Below, piece by piece: positions 4,181 through 62,278 of a stretch of DNA of 64,000 nt. Made by a program: the position numbers and the translations under genes. The notes beneath the pieces are model-generated. The model did not search any database and was not told the DNA's origin. It saw only the letters and a list, made by a program, of their open reading frames with translations. Source of the stretch: Sorex araneus (taxonomy: Eukaryota > Chordata > Mammalia > Eulipotyphla > Soricidae); contig NC_073302.1 of the NCBI RefSeq assembly GCF_027595985.1, positions 171,666,034 through 171,730,033 of the forward strand, written 5' to 3'. The stretch's first letter is position 1. Each line of letters starts with the position of its first letter.

Positions 4181-5197
4181 AAGTACGAGTCTGTAACCAT
4201 AGTTCTTTGAAACCTCTATCTCATGCCCCCAGCTTTCCTGCTTATTTCTTATCAGCTCCTGCCGAATTCAAGTGCTCTGCCCATCAGCACACATGCACAT
4301 GCTGACTCTGGCCTTTCCCGGCACGGGGGGTTGGGAGCCCAGACTCACCAGATCCTGACGCCCACTGTCTGTCTGTGAGTTACCCTCTCCCAGTAGTGGC
4401 CTATGACTTGCTCTTTTCTCAGCTCATTCTTCACTTACTCAGATTTTATTTTTAAATATTCCTTTCTCTATAAACATTTTTTAACTGAGCCTTACTTTTT
4501 CCCTTTAGCATATTCAAAATTCCAATCTGGTGCACAGGATTAAATTAGTATTTAGAAAAGTTATTAGCAAAATTCCCTGGAGAAGCCCCAGAAGTTCTTG
4601 GTTCTACTGTATTAATAAATGTTCCCCCTGGTGGAGACAGTATCAGTCTATCACTTGTAACCTTTCTAGGCTAGGAACAAAGTCCTAGTTTCCCTTTTAC
4701 AGGTTTAATATATGTTAGCATGTAGATCGGTAACCTGTGTGGTGAGTTAAAATAAGTTCCTGTTGTCAAGGCAAGATACATTATCATTCTATGTAATTTT
4801 ATATGAAATGCATCAGTGTTACAGCTTATGAAGAGAATGTGGATTGGATAGATCATCTTAAAATTAGAATATTTTGAAGTTGACATGTGATTTGTAACTT
4901 AATTAAGTATCTTACCTTGTAGACAATGTTTCATGGCTGGCTTCCTGATGTTCCCTAGCAACCGGGTCCCTACAGTTAGTGTGGGTGATGCTTTAATTAT
5001 ATTCTTTTTCCTTTTCCATATGGAATTCCTGACCCATAGCTATAAAGCAGGGTTGGATCCTTCTTATGTTGCCTGGACCTTTCTGTAGTTTTTATAATAC
5101 CCATAAAATGATGAGATTATTTAAATAAAACTGAACTCAAGAATATTTGAATAAACCTAACTAATCACAATCTCTAGAATTGTTACTAATAGAAAAT
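4181..5197. other. RFESD intron 2, single-copy
   Basis: No repeat or exon recognised in about 1 kb of moderately AT-rich sequence. Confidence 0.4.
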
Positions 5198-5250: not shown

Positions 5251-5834
5251 AGACCTCCGGAACCCAGCCACAGCCTTGCTCAAGGTGACTCTCCACACAC
5301 TCGAACGGGCCTCACGCATGAAGAAACTGGCAGAGGAACCCAGGTATGTGGGACCCAGGGTTGAGATCTCCAAGCCTGCTTGGATACGAACTGGGCCTCC
5401 TTCACCCAGATCTCCCCTTTTCCAGTAGCTAGGCAGTCACACCCACAAACTGCCCCTGGTGCCATGTAATCCCATCAACGGCCAAAATAGATCCAGAGAC
5501 TATAAAACAAAGCTCCCAGTAGTGCACAGCCGCATTCATGGCTGAGCAACCTCTTATAGCTTAGTTCTCCCTCTCGGAGAACCTGGCAAGGTACCGAGAG
5601 CATCCTGCCCACATGGCAGAGCCTGGCTAGCTCCCCTTGGCATATTCGATATGCCAAAAACAGTAATAATGATGGGTCTCATTCCCCTGACCCTGAAAGA
5701 GCCTCCAATGCAGCACTATTGGAAGGATGAGTAAAGAAAGGCTGCTAAAATCTTAGGGCTAAGACGAATGGAGACATTACTGGTACCTGCTCGAACAAAT
5801 CAATGAACAATGGGATGACAGTGATACAGTGATA
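5251..5834 (+). repeat. Family C element (RTE-tailed, about 585 bp)
   Basis: Starts at AGACCTCCGGAACCC with no tRNA-like head. It then contains blocks shared with the copies at 42.9 and 47.8 kb: 'ctccacacactcg', 'gggctcattcccctgaccctg'-like, 'gcctccaatgcagcac', and 'catattcgatatgccaaaaac', which is also in family B. It ends 'gctcgaacaaatcaatgaac', then GGGATGACAGTGATACAGTGAT. There is no poly(A). Confidence 0.75.
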
Positions 5835-11072: not shown

Positions 11073-11237
11073 ATGAAAGAAAAAAAGAAAAAAGGAAAAG
11101 AAAATAATTTCACAAACAGGAGAAATGCATGTTAATTGTTAGATGTCTATCAATTATATATATACAAATATAATTGCACAAATGTTAAATATTAGTACTT
11201 GTTTAAAGTTTCCTTATAGTAGTATTTGTTATAAATC

Positions 11238-11451
11238 ACTGTATCACTGTCATCCCGTTGCTTATCGATTTTCTTGAGTGGGCACCAATAATGTCTCCAT
11301 TGTGAGACTTGTTGTTACTGTTTTTGGCATATCGAATATGCCTCAGGTAACTTGCCAGGCTCTGCCGTGCGGGAGGGATACTCTCGGTAGCTTGCCGGGC
11401 TCTCTGAGAGGGACAGAGGAATCAAACCTGGATCGGCCACGTGCAAGGCAA
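11238..11451 (-). repeat. Family B SINE (RTE-tailed), head-truncated
   Basis: Begins with the tail complement CACTGTATCACTGTCATCCC, then CGTTGCTTATCGATTTTC and the 'gtttttggcatatcgaatatgcc' body block, and ends at 'gatcggccacgtgcaaggca', where the tRNA-like head should continue. An (AAT)n run replaces it. Confidence 0.85.
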
Positions 11452-11473
11452 ATAAATAATAATAATAATAATT
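11452..11473 (+). repeat. (AAT)n microsatellite
   Basis: About seven AAT units at the junction between a family B and a family A element. Confidence 0.85.
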
Positions 11474-16275: not shown

Positions 16276-16508
16276 GGACTGGAGCGATATCACAGCGGGT
16301 AGGGCCTTTGCCTTGCACGAGACCGACCTGGGCTCAATTCCTCTGTCCCTCAGCCCGGCAAGCTACCGAGAGTATCCCGCTTGCATGGCAGAGCCTGGCA
16401 AGCTACCCATGGCGTATTCAATATGCCAAAAACAGTAACAAGTCTCACTATGGAGACGTTACTGGTGCCCACTCGAGCAAATCAGTGAACACCGGGAGGA
16501 CAGTGCTA
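16276..16508 (+). repeat. Family B SINE, complete
   Basis: tRNA-like head ACTGGAGCGATATCACAGCGGG, box B-like 'gctcaattcctctg', then body 'cggcaagctaccgagagtat', 'gcgtattcaatatgccaaaa', 'gtctcactatggagac', and the end GGGAGGACAGTGCTACC. Target duplication TACCCATACATAT on both sides. No poly(A). Confidence 0.85.
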
Positions 16509-16804
16509 CCCATACATATAGATGAATAAAGCTAAACTCCTGAAAACATAATTATAAATCAATAAGTTGATAAAACATTTTTCCAAAAACTATAATTCTC
16601 TTTTTATAAGTATATTCATTTAAAAACTAATAATATAGATGATTCTATGCAAATACATTTTAAAATATATCAATTCTACAACTATACAGTTTAATAAGAA
16701 TGAGAGGAGAATTGTGAAAAAAAAGTTCAAGTAGACCTATAAAGGCAAACTGAATTTTGTCTTTATGTTACAAAACATTATAGTGCTAAAGTATCTGTAT
16801 TAGA

Positions 16805-19638: not shown

Positions 19639-19856
19639 GGCTGGAGCGATAGCACAGCAGTTGGGCTTTCACCTTTCATGTGGCCAACCCGTGTTCGATT
19701 CTTCTGCCCCTCGGAGAGCCCGGCAAGCCCGCACTGCAGAGCCTGGCAAGCTACCCGTGTGTATTGGATATGCCAAAAACAGTGACAATAAGTCTCTCAA
19801 TGAGAGACATCACTGGTGCCCGCTCGAACAAATCGATGAGCAACGGGATGACAGTG
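19639..19856 (+). repeat. Family B SINE, young
   Basis: GGCTGGAGCGATAGCACAGC head, 'gttcgattcttctgcccctc', the GTCTCTCAATGAGAGAC hairpin and the end GCAACGGGATGACAGTG. Target duplication ACAACTTTAATT at 19627-19638 and 19857-19868. It sits in the right-hand L1 target duplication. Confidence 0.9.
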
Positions 19857-19868
19857 ACAACTTTAATT

Positions 19869-21170: not shown

Positions 21171-21198
21171 TCGGGTGAAGCCTTACACCTATCCCCCG

Positions 21199-21617
21199 GG
21201 GCCTCTCTGAGGGATCAGGCTAAGTACTCTCCTTATGTATCCCCTGGAAGTCTCTGAGGGATCAGGCTAGGTGCTCTCCTTATGTATCCCCTGGGAGTCT
21301 CTGAGGGATCAGGCTAGGTGCTCTCCTTATGTATCCCCCTGGGAGTCTCTGAGGGATCAGGCTAGGTGCTCTCCTTATGTATCCCCCTGGGAGTCTCTGA
21401 GGGATCAGGCTAGGTGCTCTCCTTATGTATCCCCCTGGGAGTCTCTGAGGGATCAGGCTAGGTGCTCTCCTTATGTATCCCCCTGGGAGTCTCTGAGGGA
21501 TCAGGCTAGGTGCTCTCCTTATGTATCCCCCTGGGAGTCTCTGAGGGATCAGGCTAGGTGCTCTCCTTATGTATCCCCCTGGGAGTCTCTGAGGGATCAG
21601 GCTAGGTGCTCTCCTTC
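21199..21617 (-). repeat. 48-bp minisatellite, about 8.7 copies
   Basis: Unit begins GGGAGTCTCTGAGGGATCAG and ends CTCCTTATGTATCCCCCT. Copies from 21293 on are 48 bp and identical by eye; the first two are 47 bp with substitutions. The last copy breaks off at 'gctctccttccctg'. Because 48 is a multiple of 3, both strands stay open and give artefact ORFs. It lies upstream of an L1 ORF1 remnant in that element's orientation. Confidence 0.95.
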
Positions 21618-25828: not shown

Positions 25829-28800
25829 CTGAAAAAAACAGAAAACAGTTTTCTTACAGAAGTTTTTTTCTGTCAAAACATTGTTTTATTATGTTGTAAA
25901 ATGAGAAATATTTCTAAATAAAATTATCTACTTTAGATCTGCTTGTTTTTTCATCTGAAACATATACAAACGCAAAAAGAAAATTTGCATTTTCAAAATC
26001 CAAATTATTTTTTTGTATTCCCAAGGGTCCTCACTAGGGGGTGCTGCTGTGCACATGAGAAAAACAAGCTTTGAATTCATTCATTATTCATTACTAAATT
26101 ATTCACCTCCTTCAATTAAGCAAACAGCAATCAAAATCCTGAGCATTTCCTGGAGATTAATGACCTGCTTGGAAATATTAATCATGAGCCTGCTTAGGGC
26201 CAGCATTACCCGTAGATAATCATTAAACTTTGGGAAATGCTGTGTTCATATATAGCACTATTTTTCAAAAGGTAGTGTTTTACATTAATAATCTTTCAGA
26301 TGGCTCGAATTTCTGGTAACCAAGAGCTCCCGGCCTCAAACACATTAATAAGATAGATTCCATTAAGAGAATCATTTTTTTTTTTTAAGGTAACAAAGGT
26401 AGTCTGAAACAAACCACCTTTGTTGCCTTAAGCAGGAAAGGAAATGAGGGCATTAAGAAAAACATTCCCTTCTCTTCAGCAGGGAAGAAGCCCTTAACTA
26501 TGCTGCTCACAAACACCCTGGTGGCTTCAGAGAGTGCTCCAAAGGTAGACTGCAACTAATAACACCAGGTCCATGCCCAGGAAGCGTGCACATAAACTAC
26601 AAACAGTTCGCAGTGTTCACGGAAGAGTTAAAACACAGGAAACCAAATCAATGATCACAACACGAGATAGTATTGCATAGTATGTTGCAGTGTTTCTAAA
26701 GTGCCTCTGCACAAAGTATGATAACCTTTTATTGAATACTGATTGGCACTGTATCACTGTCCTGCTGTATGTACTTGTAGGATACTGCATTGTTGGCTGC
26801 TGCCACTATAAAGAACAAATGTGCTCATCATAATTTTCCTTTCTCAGGAGAATTCTGAAACCAAAAATACTAATGTAGCCTGTTAAAGGAGGTCTGGGAA
26901 ATGGGGAAGTGCCTCTTTAGTCCTTACTTTTCCAACCATACCAACTCCTACATACAGGGACATGTAGGTCCAGTTGTGGCTGATTCTCTTCATAAGTCAG
27001 CCTGGAAAATTTCCCAGAGTCCTGGCTTCTGGAAAGAGTTTCCAGGAAATGAAGCAGCTGTTGCTTTTTCCCTCTTGCTAGAGGAACAAAAATGATAGTG
27101 TTTGATTGCAGTGAATCTTACGATTAGACTACAAGGCAACAAACACACGAACAGATGTTAGGAAAAAAGCAGATACGTTCTAACAAAACGTCTCCTGGCA
27201 GAATGGGGGATTCATGGTTCTGGGGATGTATGAATGCACACTGGGAGGTCCATGTTGAGGAACTGGCACCACAGCTGATAAAAATAAGCTGTGTCTGCAT
27301 GAATGCAGAATTACCCTATTTCCTTGCATCTTCCTTTTTCAGATTTTCCCCTTCTCCTGAAAGTCACTATGACAGATTCATTTTAAAGTAAATTATGTAT
27401 TTGATATACTAGACTTCTGAAAAATAATTATATGTGTTGCCTAAGGATTACTTTAAGAAAAAATCAATAAATTTCTTCTACTCCTGTAGCAAAGCATCTC
27501 TGTAGAAAGCATATTTCCTCGAACATTTATGTGGCCACTGGCAAGTCACTGTTTTTCAATTTTATAACTCACTTGCAATACATGTTTTTCACATTATAAG
27601 CCAGTTTGTTTAATTTATGGCTTGCTATGAACAGAACTAGTGTATGGTTGAAAACTAAGGCATATAAACAGAAATTTGGTGAATCAGAGGATTTATTTCA
27701 ATTATTTTGACTCATCTAAAAAATTTAGCTTAATTTATTGTTACATTAATTTCATTTTATTTGTATCTTTAAATCTAAAGAATCCTGTATTCAGTATTTG
27801 GCTCATTTATTTTTTTAACTTTGGTATCATTACTATGTAATGTATAGATATTTGGAGAGTAAAAGATATTTTAGTTTTTAAACAACCACTAATTTTGACT
27901 GCCTCATCTCACTAAAATACCTTTTTTTTAATCTTATTTTCATTAATAATTCATTCACCAAAAAGGCAAAGTCTAATTAGTTTAGAAAATCAAGACCCAC
28001 TGAGAGATGATTAGCTGCAGTGGGGATATAAATCCACTTCTCCAGAAGGGTGCAGAATCACCTGCTCAGCTTAGCTCATGTCACTCAAGATCAATGATGG
28101 AAACCCGAGGAGTTACAGGGGAAACTAGTTTCTGTGACTAGTCCCAGAAACTGTGTAGGTACAGGGCCATGTCTGTGCTTGGCAACCCTCCATACTCAAG
28201 AGCAAAGGAAATAGCATCCAGAGTCAAGAGAGCTATTTGGCTGTTTGTTCCAGTGATAAATCTCGTGGGACTTGTTCTTGAGTAAGCTCTCTGTCATTTG
28301 GACCTGGAAACGCTTAGAGACCTGAGACTCTTGGTCAGTCTGGAGAAGTATGTCTTTAAGAGTCCGGTGGCTCTACTTTCTAGAAATTGTCCCCTTTCCC
28401 TAAGCTCTAAACTTAGATCACCCAAAATAGCCTGACAGCAGGCCGGACAAGGACCTGATATATTACTTCCTGCTATCTGTAAGGTTTCCGGTGCAAACGC
28501 CAAGCCAGTGCCCAGCTGGAAAACTTAAGAGGGGTGGGAGGGAGAGAGAAACTTTGTTTCAGTCTCAAACCTTGGTCCTAAAATAAGGAACCACAAGTTT
28601 GCTGCAGGCATTTCAAAGGCCGAATCTTTTCTTCACTCTTGCCCATCTTTTGCCTTTAGCACTCCAATAGTACAAACAGTCCTCTCTAAGGCCATTATAA
28701 GGAGGATCCTGTCACAGAAGAACTCTAGGTCCCCTGCTCTGCCTGCCAAAGTCAACAACTCTGTCTGGGGCTTGATGCGTCTTGGCTGAAGTCAGCACGA

Positions 28801-31359: not shown

Positions 31360-31635
31360 ATGAAGAAAGAAGGAAAGGAAGAAAGGAGGAAAAGAGGAAA
31401 GGAGGAAGGAAGGAAGGAAGGAAGGAAGGAAGGAAGGAAGGAAGGAAGGAAGGAAGGAAGGAAGGAAGGAAGGAAGGGAGGGAGGGAGGGAGGGAGGGAG
31501 GGAGGGAGGGAGGGAGGGAGGAAGGAGGAAGGAATGAAGGAAGGAAGGAAGGAAGGAAGGAAGGAAGGAAGGAAGGAAGGAAGGAAGGGAGGGAGGGAGG
31601 GAGGGAGGGAGGGAGGAAGGAGGAAGGAAGGAGTC
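31360..31635 (+). repeat. Compound (GGAA)n(GGGA)n microsatellite in two blocks
   Basis: Block 1 (about 31400-31535) is GGAA units then GGGA units, then the interruption GAGGAAGGAGGAAGGAA. Block 2 (about 31536-31635) repeats the same order and nearly the same interruption. Pure purine on the + strand, so it may adopt triplex or G-rich structures and offers arrays of ETS-core GGAA. Confidence 0.95.
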
Positions 31636-33732: not shown

Positions 33733-34005
33733 TGAAGAAATAATAGGTAAGAATTTTCCATATTCAGGAAGCACAGTAATTCCCAAGAAAATGAACCTGT
33801 TCTGGAGAGTCTGACAAGAGCAAACAGAACTCTAGGTATGCATCTCTAATGGCCAGCAAGCCCTGGCCTTGATGTGTACCTGGGAAATGTCTCAGACACA
33901 CAAGAATGCATGAACAAGAGAGCTCACATGTTTGAAAGAAAATAGTTCATCTTTACAGTCACAGATAAAATGCAGATTATTTTTTCTTATAATGTAATAC
34001 CATAC
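33733..34005. other. SPATA9 intron, single-copy
   Basis: Nothing recognised between the L1 fragment and the RTE LINE. Confidence 0.3.
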
Positions 34006-35045
34006 TTGTATCACTTGTATCACTTGTCATCCCGTTGATCTTCAATTTGCTCTAGCGGGGGCCAGTAACATCTCCAATCGTCCCTGTCTCGTGCTAGTGT
34101 AGCCCAATGGTATTTGCTAGCTCCAGGAATATGAAGAGTCTCAAACCATTTGTTCAGGGTTTTGATGAAGAAGTCTGACCATCTCGTAAGTGGGCGGCCA
34201 TGTGGTCTTTTGACATCTTGTGGAATCCAGTCAGTAACAGCTCTAGTCTAGCAGTCATCTCTAAATTGCATTACATGTCCGGCCCATCTGATTTTTGATG
34301 CTTTGGCAAACGAGACAGCATCCCTGATTCTTGATCATTGACGGAGATTGGAACTCTGGATTCCTTCTGTCACTTGACTGAAACATGATACTTCAAGCAT
34401 AGCTCTTTCAATTCCTCTTTGGGATACCTGAATAGCATTCTCATCCTGTTTTCATAGGGCCCAGATCTCTGAGGCATATGTTAGTGCAGGAAGAACAATG
34501 GAGTCGAAAAGATGTACCCAGAGCCAGAGGTTCTTCATCCTCTTATCCACTTCTTCGATGCTCTTGAAGGCGTTCCACGTTGCTCTCTTCCTCCTGCGCA
34601 GTTCTGGCACCAAGTCGTTCCTCATGTTGAGTTTTCGACCCAGGTATACATAGCTGCTGCATTCGGAGATATTTGTTCCATTGAGAGCAAATGGAACATC
34701 AGGAACTAGTTCGTTTTTCATGAACATTGTTTTGGTGAGATTCAGCTGCAGTCCGACCTTTCCACACTCGAAATTGAAGTCAGCCAGCATTTGTGTCCCT
34801 TGGCTAATGTTTGTATTTGGTGTTACTAGAACGATCAGTGAAGTGAAGTGGAGGTGGTGTAGTTGCCAACCATCTTCTCTTCACTCCCATTCCTTTCCAT
34901 TTCAGTCATCGCATGACGTTCTCGAGGATGGCACCGAAGAGTTTCGGTGAAATGGTATCACCCTGCCAACCCCCTCTCTTTATGCTTATGATCACTTCCT
35001 TGTAGAATGGGAAAACCTGTAAAGGTGATTGGAGGCCACCCTAAA
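34006..35045 (-). mobile_element. RTE-clade LINE, 3' part of the reverse transcriptase ORF
   Basis: The - strand encodes the RT palm onwards: FYKEVIISIKRGGWQGDTIS, PKLFGAILENVMR, then MLADFNFECGKVGLQLNLTK, NGTNISECSSYVYLGRKLN, LPALTYASEIWAL, SKIRWAGHVMQF, HGRPLTRWSDFFIKTLNKWF, HWATLARDRDDWRCYWPPLE and QIEDQRDDK, with TGA at 34020-34022. At least four in-frame stops and a disrupted stretch where the catalytic FADD box should lie make it dead. There is no 3' UTR beyond a 9-bp repeat tail (ACAAGTGAT complement). The clade call rests on the RQGDTISPKLF-like and SYVYLG(R) motifs and on the missing 3' UTR. Confidence 0.85.
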
Positions 35046-35165
35046 AGCTTCCATCCCTCTCAGAGAGCCCAGCAAGCTACTGAGAGTACCCACCTGCACG
35101 GCAGAGCCTAACATACTATCCATGGCATATTCAATATGCCAAAAACAGTAACAGTAACAGTAACA
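35046..35165 (+). repeat. Family B fragment (middle only)
   Basis: 'cctctcagagagcccagcaag', 'ctaacatactatccatggca', 'tattcaatatgccaaaaaca', then (GTAACA)n. Both the tRNA-like head and the RTE tail are missing. Confidence 0.75.
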
Positions 35166-35299
35166 CCACACAGAAGTTCAAATAACAAATCATAACTTCA
35201 TGTATCAATAATAATTGAATGAAAAAGCAAGTTTCGTAAGGATAAGTACACTACACTATTACATATATGTGTTTAAAATGCACATGAGTTAATAGAAGT

Positions 35300-35643
35300 A
35301 TTATCATCCTCATCATCATCCCGTTGATAGTCGAATTTCTCGAGCGGTCTCAGTAACGTCTCCATTTGTCCTAGCCCTGAGATTTTAGAAGCCTCCCTCT
35401 AATTGTCCTTCCCAATGATGCCGCATTGGAGGCTCTTTCAGGGCCAGGGGAATAAGCCCCAGGTTGTTACTGGTGTTTGCATATGAATACACCATGGGGA
35501 GTTTTCGAGGTTCTCCCATGTGGTAGCTTGCCAGTTTCTCCCAGAGGGAGAAGTAGGCTATAAGATATTGCGTGGCCACCTTAAGGCTGCGCCTTCCAGA
35601 AGCTTGTTTTAAGTCTCTGGATTTTGGCCGTTGGTGGGATTAA
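35300..35643 (-). repeat. Family C element, 5'-truncated
   Basis: Tail complement ATCATCATCCCGTTGATAGTC at the left, then 'aacgtctccatttgtcctag', 'gagattttagaagcctccct', 'gccgcattggaggctctttc', 'ttggccgttggtgggattaa'. Same block order as the 47.8-kb copy, on the opposite strand. Confidence 0.8.
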
Positions 35644-41934: not shown

Positions 41935-42353
41935 TTTTTTTTTCTTTTTGGGTCACACCCGGCGATGCACAGGAGAAACTCCTAGCTCTGTACTCAGGAA
42001 TTACTCCTGGCAGTCTTTGGGCTGGAGCAATAGCACAGCAGTTGGGCTCTTGCCTTTCACTTGGCCAACACATGTTCGATTCCTCTGCCCCTCTCGGAGA
42101 GCCCGGCAAGCTACCGAGAGTATCGAGCCCGCACACCAGAGCCTGGCAAGCTACCCGTGCATATTGGATATGCCCAAAACAGTAACAATAAGTCTCTCAA
42201 TGAGAGACGTTACTGGTGCCCACTCGAACAAATCGATGAGCAACGGGATGACAGTGACAGTGTTCAGGGGACCGTATGGGATGCTGGGAATCGAACCCAG
42301 GTTGGCTGCGTGCAAGGCAAACGCCCTACCTGCTGTGCTATTGCTCCAGCCCC
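41935..42353 (-). repeat. Family A SINE split by a family B SINE
   Basis: The tail half lies at 41935-42008 and the head half at 42262-42353, together making one complete copy. ATGCACTA is repeated at the two outer edges. Confidence 0.85.
42009..42261 (+). repeat. Family B SINE nested in a family A SINE
   Basis: GGGCTGGAGCAATAGCACAGC head, CTCTCGGAGAGCCCGGCAAG, GTCTCTCAATGAGAGAC hairpin at 42192-42208, end GGGATGACAGTGACAGTG. Same young subtype as the copy at 19.6 kb. Confidence 0.9.
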
Positions 42354-42881: not shown

Positions 42882-43446
42882 TTATATCTCCTCATTGGCA
42901 CCCTCCAGAACTTACGGCTGCTTCTCCCGAAGGGAGCATAAAATGAGGTCCCCATAACCAAGCCACAGGACTCCACACCAGGGTTTGCCCCAGAGAGGGG
43001 TGGGTGAGAGCCCTCCCCGCCCCAAGGGACCCAGCCTCGGCAGCTGACCTCCACTACCCCACCACCGCCACGTTCCAGGCCGCTTTCCACAGGCTCGGGC
43101 CGAGCCTCACGCATGAGTGAACATATTCCTGGACTGCACGGCAGCAGAGTGGCTGCGCGAGACATCATCACATAAATATATACATATGCCTCTTGGAGCA
43201 CCCGGCAAGCTACCAAGAGTATCCCATCCGCAAGGCAGAGACTGGAAAGTTCCCTGTGGAGTATTCGATATGCCAGAAATAGTAACAATAACAGGTCTCA
43301 TTCCCCTGACCCTGAAAGAGCTTCTAATCGTTGGGAAAGACGAGTAAGGAGAGGCTTCTAAAATCTCAGGGCTGGAATGAATGCAGCGTTACTGGTGCCC
43401 ACTCAAGTAAATTGATGAACAACAGGATGACAGTGATACATTTATA
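42882..43446 (+). repeat. Family C element, about 565 bp
   Basis: 'cctccagaacttacggctgc', 'caggccgctttccacaggct', 'gagcctcacgcatgagtgaa', then the family B block 'gtattcgatatgccagaaat', then 'ctcattcccctgaccctgaa' and the end 'caacaggatgacagtgatac'. No poly(A). Confidence 0.78.
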
Positions 43447-45252: not shown

Positions 45253-45905
45253 CTTTTTTTTATTATTTTTTATTAATCACTGGGCTGGAGCGACAGCACA
45301 GAGGTTGGGGGTTGGCCTTTCACGCGGCTGACCCAGGTTCGATTCCTCCGCCCCTCTTGGAGAGCCAGGTGAGCTACCAAGAGTATCGAGCCTGCACGGC
45401 AGAGCCTGGCAAGCTACCCGTGGCGTACTGGATATGCCAAAAACAGTAACAATAAGTCTCTCAATGAGAGATGTTACTGGTGCCCACTCGAACAAATTGA
45501 TGGGCAACAGGATGACAGTGATTGAATCACTGTGAGATAGTTACAAGCTTTCATGTCTGGGTTACAATCTCACAATGATCAAACACCCATCCCTCCACCA
45601 GTGCACATTCCCCACCACCGATATCCCCCCTTTCCCACCCTCCTCCTGCCTCCATGGCAGACAATATTACTCATACTCTCTCTCTACTTTTGGGCATTAT
45701 GGTTTGCAACACAGACACTGAGAGGTCATCATGCTTGTTCATTATGTACTTTCGGCACACATCTCCCATCCCAATGGGTTCCTCCAGCCATTATTTTCTT
45801 AGTGATCCCTCCTCTCTTCCATCTGCCTTCTCCCCTCATGAAGCAGTCTTCCAGCTAAGGGGCAATCCTCCTGGCCCTTGTATCTACTGTCCTTGTGAAG
45901 AACAC
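45253..45905 (-). repeat. L1 3' UTR fragment, split by a family B SINE
   Basis: Left part 45253-45281 (T-rich, 'attaatcactg'); right part from 'ttgaatcactgtgagatag', with 'ccaccagtgcacattcccca' and 'gggcattatggtttgcaaca'. Confidence 0.8.
45282..45523 (+). repeat. Family B SINE nested in an L1 fragment
   Basis: Complete head, body, hairpin at 45456-45472 (one mismatch) and end GGGCAACAGGATGACAGTGA. AATCACTG duplicated. Confidence 0.9.
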
Positions 45906-47739: not shown

Positions 47740-48345
47740 GGCCTTGAGGTGCGGGGGAGGGGGTGGGATGGGACCAGAGATCTTATCCAGTTTTCTTGTA
47801 TATAAAGCACGTAATTTACGCAGAGAGTCTCTTGCCTGAGCGCTTGGCTGTCTTCCCCGGGACCCTTCGGAAGGGATGGGCTCCAGCTTCCCTCCCCGCC
47901 CTGAGCAGAGCTCCTGGAGGCCAAAGACCTCCAGAATCTAGCCACAGCCATGCTCAAGGCCCTTCTCCACACGTTCGGACAAGCCTCAGGCATGAATGTA
48001 CCGGCAGAGGAACCCAGGTGTGTGTAATCCCATCAACGGCCAACATCCAGAGACTTAAAAGCAAGCTCCCAGAAGATATCTTATAACCTACTTCTCCCTC
48101 TGGGAGAAACTGGCAAGCTACTGAGAGTTTCCTGCCCACATGGGAAAGCCTCGCAAGCTTCCCATGGTGTATTCATATGCCAAAGCCAGTAACAAGGTGG
48201 GTCTCATTCCCCTGGCCCTGAAAAAGCCTCCAATGCAGCATTGTTGGGAAGGCTGAGTACAGAGAGGCTTCTAAAATCTCAGGGATAGGACGTTACTGAG
48301 ACCGCTCGATAAATTCGATGATTAACGGGATGATGGTGATGAATT
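47740..48345 (+). repeat. Family C element, about 600 bp
   Basis: 'accagagatcttatccagtt', 'ctccacacgttcggacaagc', 'atgaatgtaccggcagagga', 'ctccaatgcagcattgttgg', 'aggcttctaaaatctcaggg', end 'aacgggatgatggtgatgaa'. It is the longest and best-preserved copy in the window. Confidence 0.8.
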
Positions 48346-49606: not shown

Positions 49607-49800
49607 CCCGTCCCTCTCGGAGAGCCTGGCAAGCTACCAAGAGTATCCTTCCCGCATGGCAGAGCCTTGTAAGCTACCTGTGGCATATTCAGTATACCAA
49701 ATATAGTAACAACAAGTCTCACAATGAAGACGTTACTGGTGCCTGCTTGAGCAAATCGATGAACAACAGGATGACAGTGCTAACAGTGCTAACATGTGCT
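49607..49800 (+). repeat. Family B SINE, 5'-truncated (no tRNA head)
   Basis: Starts at CCCCGTCCCTCTCGGAGAGCC. It keeps the rest of the body and ends GGATGACAGTGCTAACAGTG, with tail unit ACAGTGCTA. Loss of the 5' end only fits target-primed reverse transcription from the 3' tail. Confidence 0.85.
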
Positions 49801-61775: not shown

Positions 61776-62027
61776 ATGGGATGGAATGATAGCATAGCCA
61801 GTAGGGCATTTGCCTTGCACACGGCCGACCCGGGTTTGATTCCTCCATCACTCTTGGAGAGCCTGGCAAGCTACCGAGAATATCCTGCCCACATGGCAGA
61901 ACCTGGCAAGCTACCCATGGCGTATTCCATATGCCAAAAAACAGTAACAACAAGTCTCATAATGGAGACGTTATTGTTACCTGCTCAAGCAAATTGATGA
62001 ACAACAGGATGATAGTGCTACAGTGCT
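61776..62027 (+). repeat. Family B SINE, complete
   Basis: Head GGGATGGAATGATAGCATAG, 'gggtttgattcctccatcac', 'gcgtattccatatgccaaaa', GTCTCATAATGGAGAC stem, end GGATGATAGTGCTACAGTGC. AGAACTGTTAAA duplicated. Tail unit ACAGTGCT. Confidence 0.88.
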
Positions 62028-62278
62028 ACAGAACTGTTAAAATAGAATTTTACTCAATCGCCATTGTCTAATTTCTACATCATTCACTGTTGTCTAACTT
62101 CTGTGTCAGTAGAGTATGTTTTATGATTTCTAAAATTCAATTTCGTCTTGCACTGTTATAATTCTAGAATTCATAGTCCTAAGTCAGTTGTTCTTTCAAT
62201 ATTAAGCAGGAACTTATAGTTGCTGCTTTAGTTTTTATGAGTCAGGGTCAGTCTCTTGCCTTATCAAGCCGGTGGGGT

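Follow-up and report, generated by a model that had tools for sequence, protein, structure and literature searches.

A SINE family of Sorex araneus joins a resident tRNA-like head to both ends of an RTE-type LINE

Bipartite SINEs and the anatomy of family B

In ruminants, SINEs have been re-tooled by the LINE Bov-B in a manner similar to that considered here. Gogolevsky (2008) reportedly described Bov-tA, AfroSINE, Mar-1 and Ped-1/2 as elements in which a tRNA-, 5S- or SINE-derived head is joined to two pieces of Bov-B and which depend on the Bov-B machinery, and the head of Ped-2 is said in that work to have been taken from the ID SINE. We take Bov-B to be an RTE lineage different from the LINE analysed below. 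The SOR SINE of shrews was reportedly described by Borodulina and Kramerov in 2001, and the SOR-type copies in our sequence are presumably SOR. SINEs driven by RTEs have been described as typically bipartite in their tails (PMC4844689, PMC7245038). Like the shrew SINE family reported here (B), the AviRTE SINEs (ManaSINE1, GymnSINE and others) combine a promoter-bearing head with a bipartite 5' UTR/3' UTR tail of one RTE, and AviRTE is described as horizontally transferred between birds and nematodes (PMC4844689). The AviRTE SINEs differ in their bird hosts and in their tRNA-Glu, 5S, 28S and GC-rich heads (PMC4844689), whereas B has the head of a resident SINE and a shared 3' end that includes the last ORF codons. 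The hagfish elements SINE1-1_EBu and SINE2-9_EBu, with RTE-2 and RTE-4, are described as following the birth path that we propose for B, from a deleted bipartite RTE to a chimera with a SINE head, but their heads are 7SL or tRNA/UCON3 and the duplications of SINE1-1_EBu measure ~17 bp, compared with 10-13 bp for B (PMC7245038). The SOR SINE is known from shrews (PMC11240701). The SOR-type copies here have a 66-nt head in common with B, but a different body and, in an uncounted set of copies inspected, A-rich tails. Our searches of the open literature found no description of B; Repbase, Dfam, SINEBase and most subscription papers lay outside their scope, so the family may already be catalogued. 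We thus regard B as a new example of a known arrangement, the bipartite RTE-driven SINE, of which the nematode link discussed below is the unproven part.

We analysed a window of 64,000 nucleotides of the Sorex araneus genome, and found that the B consensus (~250 nt) consists of three parts (nt 1-66, nt 67-175 and nt 183-253). The first part is the tRNA-like head of a SOR-type SINE, with up to 94% identity to SOR-type heads in the window, eight of which were called tRNA-Ala by ARAGORN. Both Pol III boxes are kept in this head (A box, TAGCACAGCGGG at 13; B box, GGTTCGATTCC at 56 of the consensus), which is therefore predicted to act as an internal Pol III promoter. The second part is LINE 5' UTR: 102 of its 109 positions are identical to the LINE copy L030, with a score of 183 against at most 27 in shuffles, and 100 agree with a LINE 5' UTR consensus built from 10 rows, some with foreign flank. 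The third part is the LINE 3' end with its tail repeats. Aligned with the B consensus, the LINE 3' consensus scored 100 over 72 columns, against 31 for the best of 500 dinucleotide-preserving shuffles; the LINE copy of the window, aligned with one individual B copy (61778), scored 56 (shuffle maximum 26), and B 183-252 matched 34007-34076 at 87% with a provisional B consensus. Both tails are built of GTGATACA-type units that differ in their last base, and an A-run of at least 8 within 60 nt was found at none of the 13 B ends checked. The tail of B is therefore bipartite, with both of its pieces, 5' UTR and 3' end, coming from one RTE-type LINE.

The first-pass annotation of this DNA had claimed that the LINE and B share their 3' end and that B copies have no poly(A), and our results bear out both claims, the former on the consensus sequences of sampled copies and the latter at 13/13 ends. 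The sharing is nevertheless wider than had been described, since two LINE pieces, including the 109 nt of 5' UTR, are involved rather than one. A search of the window for the B and LINE strings quoted there, allowing up to 4 errors, also showed the quoted B strings to be composites, as the six copies for which they were given contain no exact instance of any of them; an exact match was found for the third alone, at 11239-11258 (- strand). A further match at 26749 (-) was rejected as a chance 20-mer, as the surrounding sequence gave no further B or LINE match.

The window contains seven B copies (five headed and two 5'-truncated), together with four long forms that lack a head and a single copy of the LINE. 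The six B copies previously named are all present on the + strand. Five of them carry the tRNA-like head that had been ascribed to all six: 16276..16509 (target duplication TACCCATACATAT), 19639..19857 (target duplication ACAACTTTAAT), 42019..42262 (GTCTCTCAATGAGAGAC hairpin), 45282..45522 (8-bp candidate duplication AATCACTG, under our 9-bp cut) and 61778..62031 (target duplication AGAACTGTTAAA), the second, third and fourth belonging to a hairpin subfamily, B2. The sixth, at 49.6 kb (49610..49791, +), is 5'-truncated (B 70-250) and headless, starting at B position 70. The earlier inventory had overlooked a seventh copy on the - strand (11235..11453; 5'-truncated, B 31-249) and the four headless long forms. 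The window also holds an array of a 48-bp unit (21190-21616; 8.9 copies, 97% alike) and a GAAG tetranucleotide array (31365-31632; 67.5 copies).

The LINE family and its headless derivatives

The LINE copy of the window (34006..35019, - strand) represents the 3' part of an RTE-type element, including the end of the reverse-transcriptase ORF in a decayed reading frame, with tail repeats at 34006-34035. It aligned with the copies L020, L028 and L018 at 83-84% over ~1.0 kb. The three LINE strings quoted in the first-pass annotation are exact on the - strand (34056-34075, 34036-34055 and 34016-34035), and the 3' end had been seen correctly, but the 5' UTR of the same copy beyond it had been missed. 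This piece (~35007..35153, + strand) is inverted relative to the rest of the LINE, as in an insertion of the 5'-inversion type, and matches the B body; it scored 184 against the L030 5' UTR and 133 against B 67-171 (shuffle maxima 28 and 29, respectively). A 5' inversion is also present in L028. The insertion is framed by a 12-bp candidate target duplication (33994..34005 on the 3' side and 35160..35171 on the 5' side; 10/12 match), which is suggestive only, an equally good match being found at 132 of 5000 random places.

We searched the genome containing the window (2.4 Gb, 65 contigs) with the end of the window LINE; of 4078 candidates, 40 were scored and all of these matched, the 39 apart from the window copy at 89-92%, and 20 matches were taken with 5.5 kb upstream. 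About 3.0 kb is common to L020 and L028, and L040, from a random sample, contains 2.5 kb of the LINE ORF. The reverse transcriptase was recognised by Pfam (PF00078, E = 1.1e-17), and its nearest solved structures in the PDB are R2 and L1 ORF2. The ORF starts with an endonuclease-like stretch, for which L034 gave weak matches below the Pfam cut-offs (Exo_endo_phos_2, E = 5e-4; Exo_endo_phos, E = 3e-3) and the L020 piece gave no Pfam endonuclease match; at an E threshold of 0.001, Pfam recognised nothing in two of the LINE protein pieces, and a viral-contig scan for the reverse transcriptase returned no match. The translated copies are decayed, and the open stretch of L028 terminates in WRYYWCPLEQIEDQRDDK, directly before the tail repeats. 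This anatomy, with an endonuclease-like stretch, a reverse transcriptase and simple repeats right after the last codons, would fit an RTE-type LINE.

The stretch matching the B body is continuous with the ORF in L030, L032, L034, L035 and, with a gap, L033, and leads into it in L020 with a SOR-type SINE inserted, while L031 and L036 have only its last part before the ORF, the upstream sequence being cut or replaced. Because it continues into the ORF in these copies, the stretch is LINE sequence and not a neighbouring SINE, and the inverted piece in the window agrees with this. The 5' flank of L020 (~2215-2269) additionally contains two inverted copies of a short sequence (CCCATCAAATATGGTGCAAAA .. 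TTTTGCACCATATTTGATGGG), which may represent a 5' end folded back on itself.

The LINE ORF presumably resembles the RTE proteins of strongylids. The LINE is probably RTE1_Sar, an identification made from the published description of that element. RTE1_Sar has been described as an RTE abundant in Sorex araneus, and an exchange with strongylid nematodes has been reported for it (PMC6542046); the word SINE does not occur in the main text of that paper. Should the LINE be an older, vertically inherited RTE instead, the nematode connection would not apply to B. We consider this unlikely, as RTE1_Sar is abundant in Sorex araneus but was not found in the reads of hedgehog, solenodon and star-nosed mole (PMC6542046), and as the window is rich in SOR-type SINEs, SOR being a SINE of shrews (PMC11240701).

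Three types of headless derivative, named SIDE-1, SIDE-2 and SIDE-3 in this analysis, consist of LINE 5' UTR joined to LINE 3' end. The window holds two SIDE-2 copies (5493..5834, 5' limit approximate, and 43189..43446; both +) and two SIDE-1 copies (35310..35620, -, 5' limit approximate, with a tail of GAT-like repeats, and 48047..48340, +). SIDE-1, whose tail consists of GAT-like repeats, further includes L039, with L009 and L025 assigned by body similarity; SIDE-2, which has a B-type end, includes L026, L027, L036, L045, L048 and L051; and SIDE-3, which retains the last ~130 bp of the LINE, comprises L064, L065 and L068-L072. In the SIDE-3 copies inspected, a T-rich part precedes the RTE 5' UTR. 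The 3' end of B is closest to SIDE-2 (54/57 identical), followed by the LINE consensus (52/57) and SIDE-1 (44/50), and the B body is about equally close to the LINE 5' UTR (91.7%) and SIDE-2 (91.3%) and less so to SIDE-1 (83.2%).

LINE subtypes were compared by distances on trimmed sequence. Two types of LINE end occur, GAAGATCAA..AAGTGATACAA as in the window copy and a GATGAACAA-like end; B and SIDE-2 carry GATGARCAA..CAGTGATACAG. Among the nine further loci taken with a query of the B-type end (the query itself excluded), L059 is a 309 bp LINE with the B-type tail and GATGAATAA, differing at one position from the diagnostic GATGARCAA; L058, L062 and L063 have the GATGARCAA codons but another tail; L060, L061 and L066 have the window-type LINE end; and the remaining two, L064 and L065, are SIDE-3 derivatives. 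Judged by its slightly different end, the subfamily of the window LINE did not itself supply the B end. A nearly complete B-type end on the LINE copy L059, and a partial one on L058, L062 and L063, point to a sister of that subfamily as the probable source.

Mobilisation of B

We consider, with a probability of roughly 0.92, that B owes its mobility as a SINE to the family of RTE-type LINEs that includes 34006-35019. That an RTE LINE supplied the machinery for B had already been proposed in the first-pass annotation, and the shared end, the 5' UTR piece, the duplications and the overlapping ages support it. In the order of steps that we infer, the LINE would have given rise to internally deleted headless derivatives, with 5' UTR joined to 3' end, of the SIDE-1, -2 and -3 kinds, and a headless form close to SIDE-2 would then have acquired the 66-nt tRNA-like head of a resident SOR-type SINE, which with its A and B boxes would have been the source of the internal Pol III promoter. 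The resulting B RNA would be made by Pol III and terminate in the LINE 3' end and GTGATACA-type repeats; the LINE endonuclease/reverse transcriptase would recognise this end and copy the RNA at a nicked target, leaving duplications of 10-13 bp and no poly(A). Copying of B RNA by the LINE protein is suggested here by sequence features.

Divergence was calculated for sampled copies as CpG-free K2P distance from the consensus. The B copies had a median of 6.9% (range 2.5-12.8, 26 copies), and the last 715 bp of the LINE a median of 6.1% (range 3.4-12.4), the latter being biased low because most of the 28 pieces were chosen by similarity (two from random regions gave 9.1% and 10.2%). These 28 pieces do not equal 28 copies, as several pieces come from each of L022, L025 and L027, and L013 and L022 4544-4677 among them are internally deleted forms. 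The divergence ranges of B and the LINE overlap. Median divergence was 10.7% for SIDE-2 (8 copies) and 8.6% for SIDE-1 (5 copies); the 5' UTR value (median 0.265) was set aside, since foreign flanks of truncated copies are mixed into it.

In a 124-kb sample composed of the window and 20 random 3-kb regions, we counted 14 B copies, 8 headless forms and 3 LINEs, the partial end L053 being excluded. Scaled genome-wide, these counts correspond to ~272,000 B copies (Poisson 149,000-456,000), 155,000 headless forms and 58,000 LINEs. Allowing up to 2 mismatches, the 32-mer across the 5' UTR/3' end junction of B had 89,993 genome-wide matches and the 30-mer across the head/body boundary had 50,324, with no match to either reversed pattern; these counts are lower bounds, because the head/body pattern detects, within this limit, no more than 2 of the 13 headed copies sampled locally.

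We further compared the insertion signatures of B and its RTE-type relatives with those of SOR copies. Among 14 B copies with both head and end, the flanks were long enough for analysis in 13; target duplications above the 99% null were seen in 8 of the 13, compared with 32 of 67 SOR copies. At a cut of 9 bp, a match at least that long was present at 15 of 60 RTE-type ends, of which 13 were kept, L017 (too distant from the break) and L019 (a tail repeat) being dropped; the kept rows include L035, a divergent B copy classed as LINE, and L051 (-), which is headless. The RTE-type duplications were shorter than those of SOR (median 11 bp in 13 rows vs 14 bp in 20 rows, p = 0.0015), and the 12 of 32 SOR duplications that were dropped, as they start too close to the edge of the 30-nt flank, shorten the SOR median and thus work against the reported difference. 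They were also less A-rich at +2..+4 (9/39 vs 36/60, p = 4e-4), the SOR-type duplications being 10-18 bp long and often starting with A. A T-stretch ahead of Bov-B insertion sites has been described in PMC13295347, the RTE-type signature being such a stretch ~10 nt ahead of the cut together with TA at the cut itself. The upstream T-stretch gave 39% vs 28% in our comparison, a trend that is not significant (p = 0.06). The same head with a different tail and a different insertion pattern is therefore what a change of machinery between SOR and B predicts.

These signatures bear on the alternative that B is driven by L1, as the head-sharing SOR SINE is, with the RTE-like body and tail as a passenger. 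The 66-nt head common to both SINEs would suit such a scenario, as would T|A at the insertion start, which is seen in both with no sharp separation (9/13 RTE-type vs 8/20 SOR). However, B-type duplications are shorter and contain fewer A, none of the 13 ends carries an A-run of 8, the tail is made of the LINE's own kind of repeat unit, and headless relatives with the B tail but no SOR part have also spread, so that we regard L1 as a very improbable driver. A coincidental 3' similarity, a third sequence as the source of both ends, or capture of the end by the LINE from B is scarcely credible: nothing but the shortness of the shared end speaks for it, whereas the alignment score far exceeds that of the shuffles, a second LINE region of 109 nt is also in B, and transfer from LINE to B is the natural direction because the shared end is formed by the last codons of the LINE ORF, the open stretch of L028 ending in WRYYWCPLEQIEDQRDDK.

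The junction hairpin and a possible nematode origin

Returning to B as an RTE-mobilised SINE, a broader reading would combine its origin with its structure. It supposes that the LINE is RTE1_Sar and reached the shrew from parasitic nematodes, that it hijacked the SOR head to form B (~150,000-450,000 copies, with ~70% of their length originating from a nematode element), and that hairpin arms supplied by both LINE pieces rebuild an RNA structure recognised by the LINE protein, which would account for the retention of both LINE ends in RTE SINEs. We offer this combination tentatively, as possible but on balance not favoured. Should the LINE indeed be RTE1_Sar, its passage from parasite to mammal would not only have added a LINE but also re-tooled a resident SINE into a common genome repeat, and AviRTE in birds would provide a parallel. 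B also offers a mammalian case for the question of why RTE-driven SINEs carry both LINE ends, and its densely spaced insertions could serve as presence/absence markers in shrew phylogeny.

At the joint of its two LINE pieces, B folds into a hairpin to which each piece contributes one arm (CAGTAAC..GTCTC and GAGAC..GTTACTG). Its folding energy is -11.9 kcal/mol, compared with -3.3 +/- 2.0 for mononucleotide shuffles, none of 300 of which was as low, while the 3' part of B taken in full folds with an unremarkable energy (38/300 shuffles as low). Pairing between the 5' UTR and the 3' end in the LINE RNA itself was tried and rejected (duplex -32.2 kcal/mol, with 274/300 shuffles at least as strong). 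Among the 18 single copies in which the hairpin was matched, values ranged from -3.0 to -15.0, and in subfamily B2 (19639, 42019 and 45282) the stem is lengthened to GTCTCTC AAT GAGAGAC, at -15.0 kcal/mol. A B copy at L025 4147-4181 carries a paired double change in the outer stem (CAGTCAC / GTGACTG). The longer B2 stem and this one double change make thin evidence of covariation, because copies are neutral after insertion, and that the hairpin matters for B is a guess. A B2 fragment with a partly lengthened stem also lies at L021 ~4713-4912 (-), where it lies almost precisely against the 5' break of a LINE copy.
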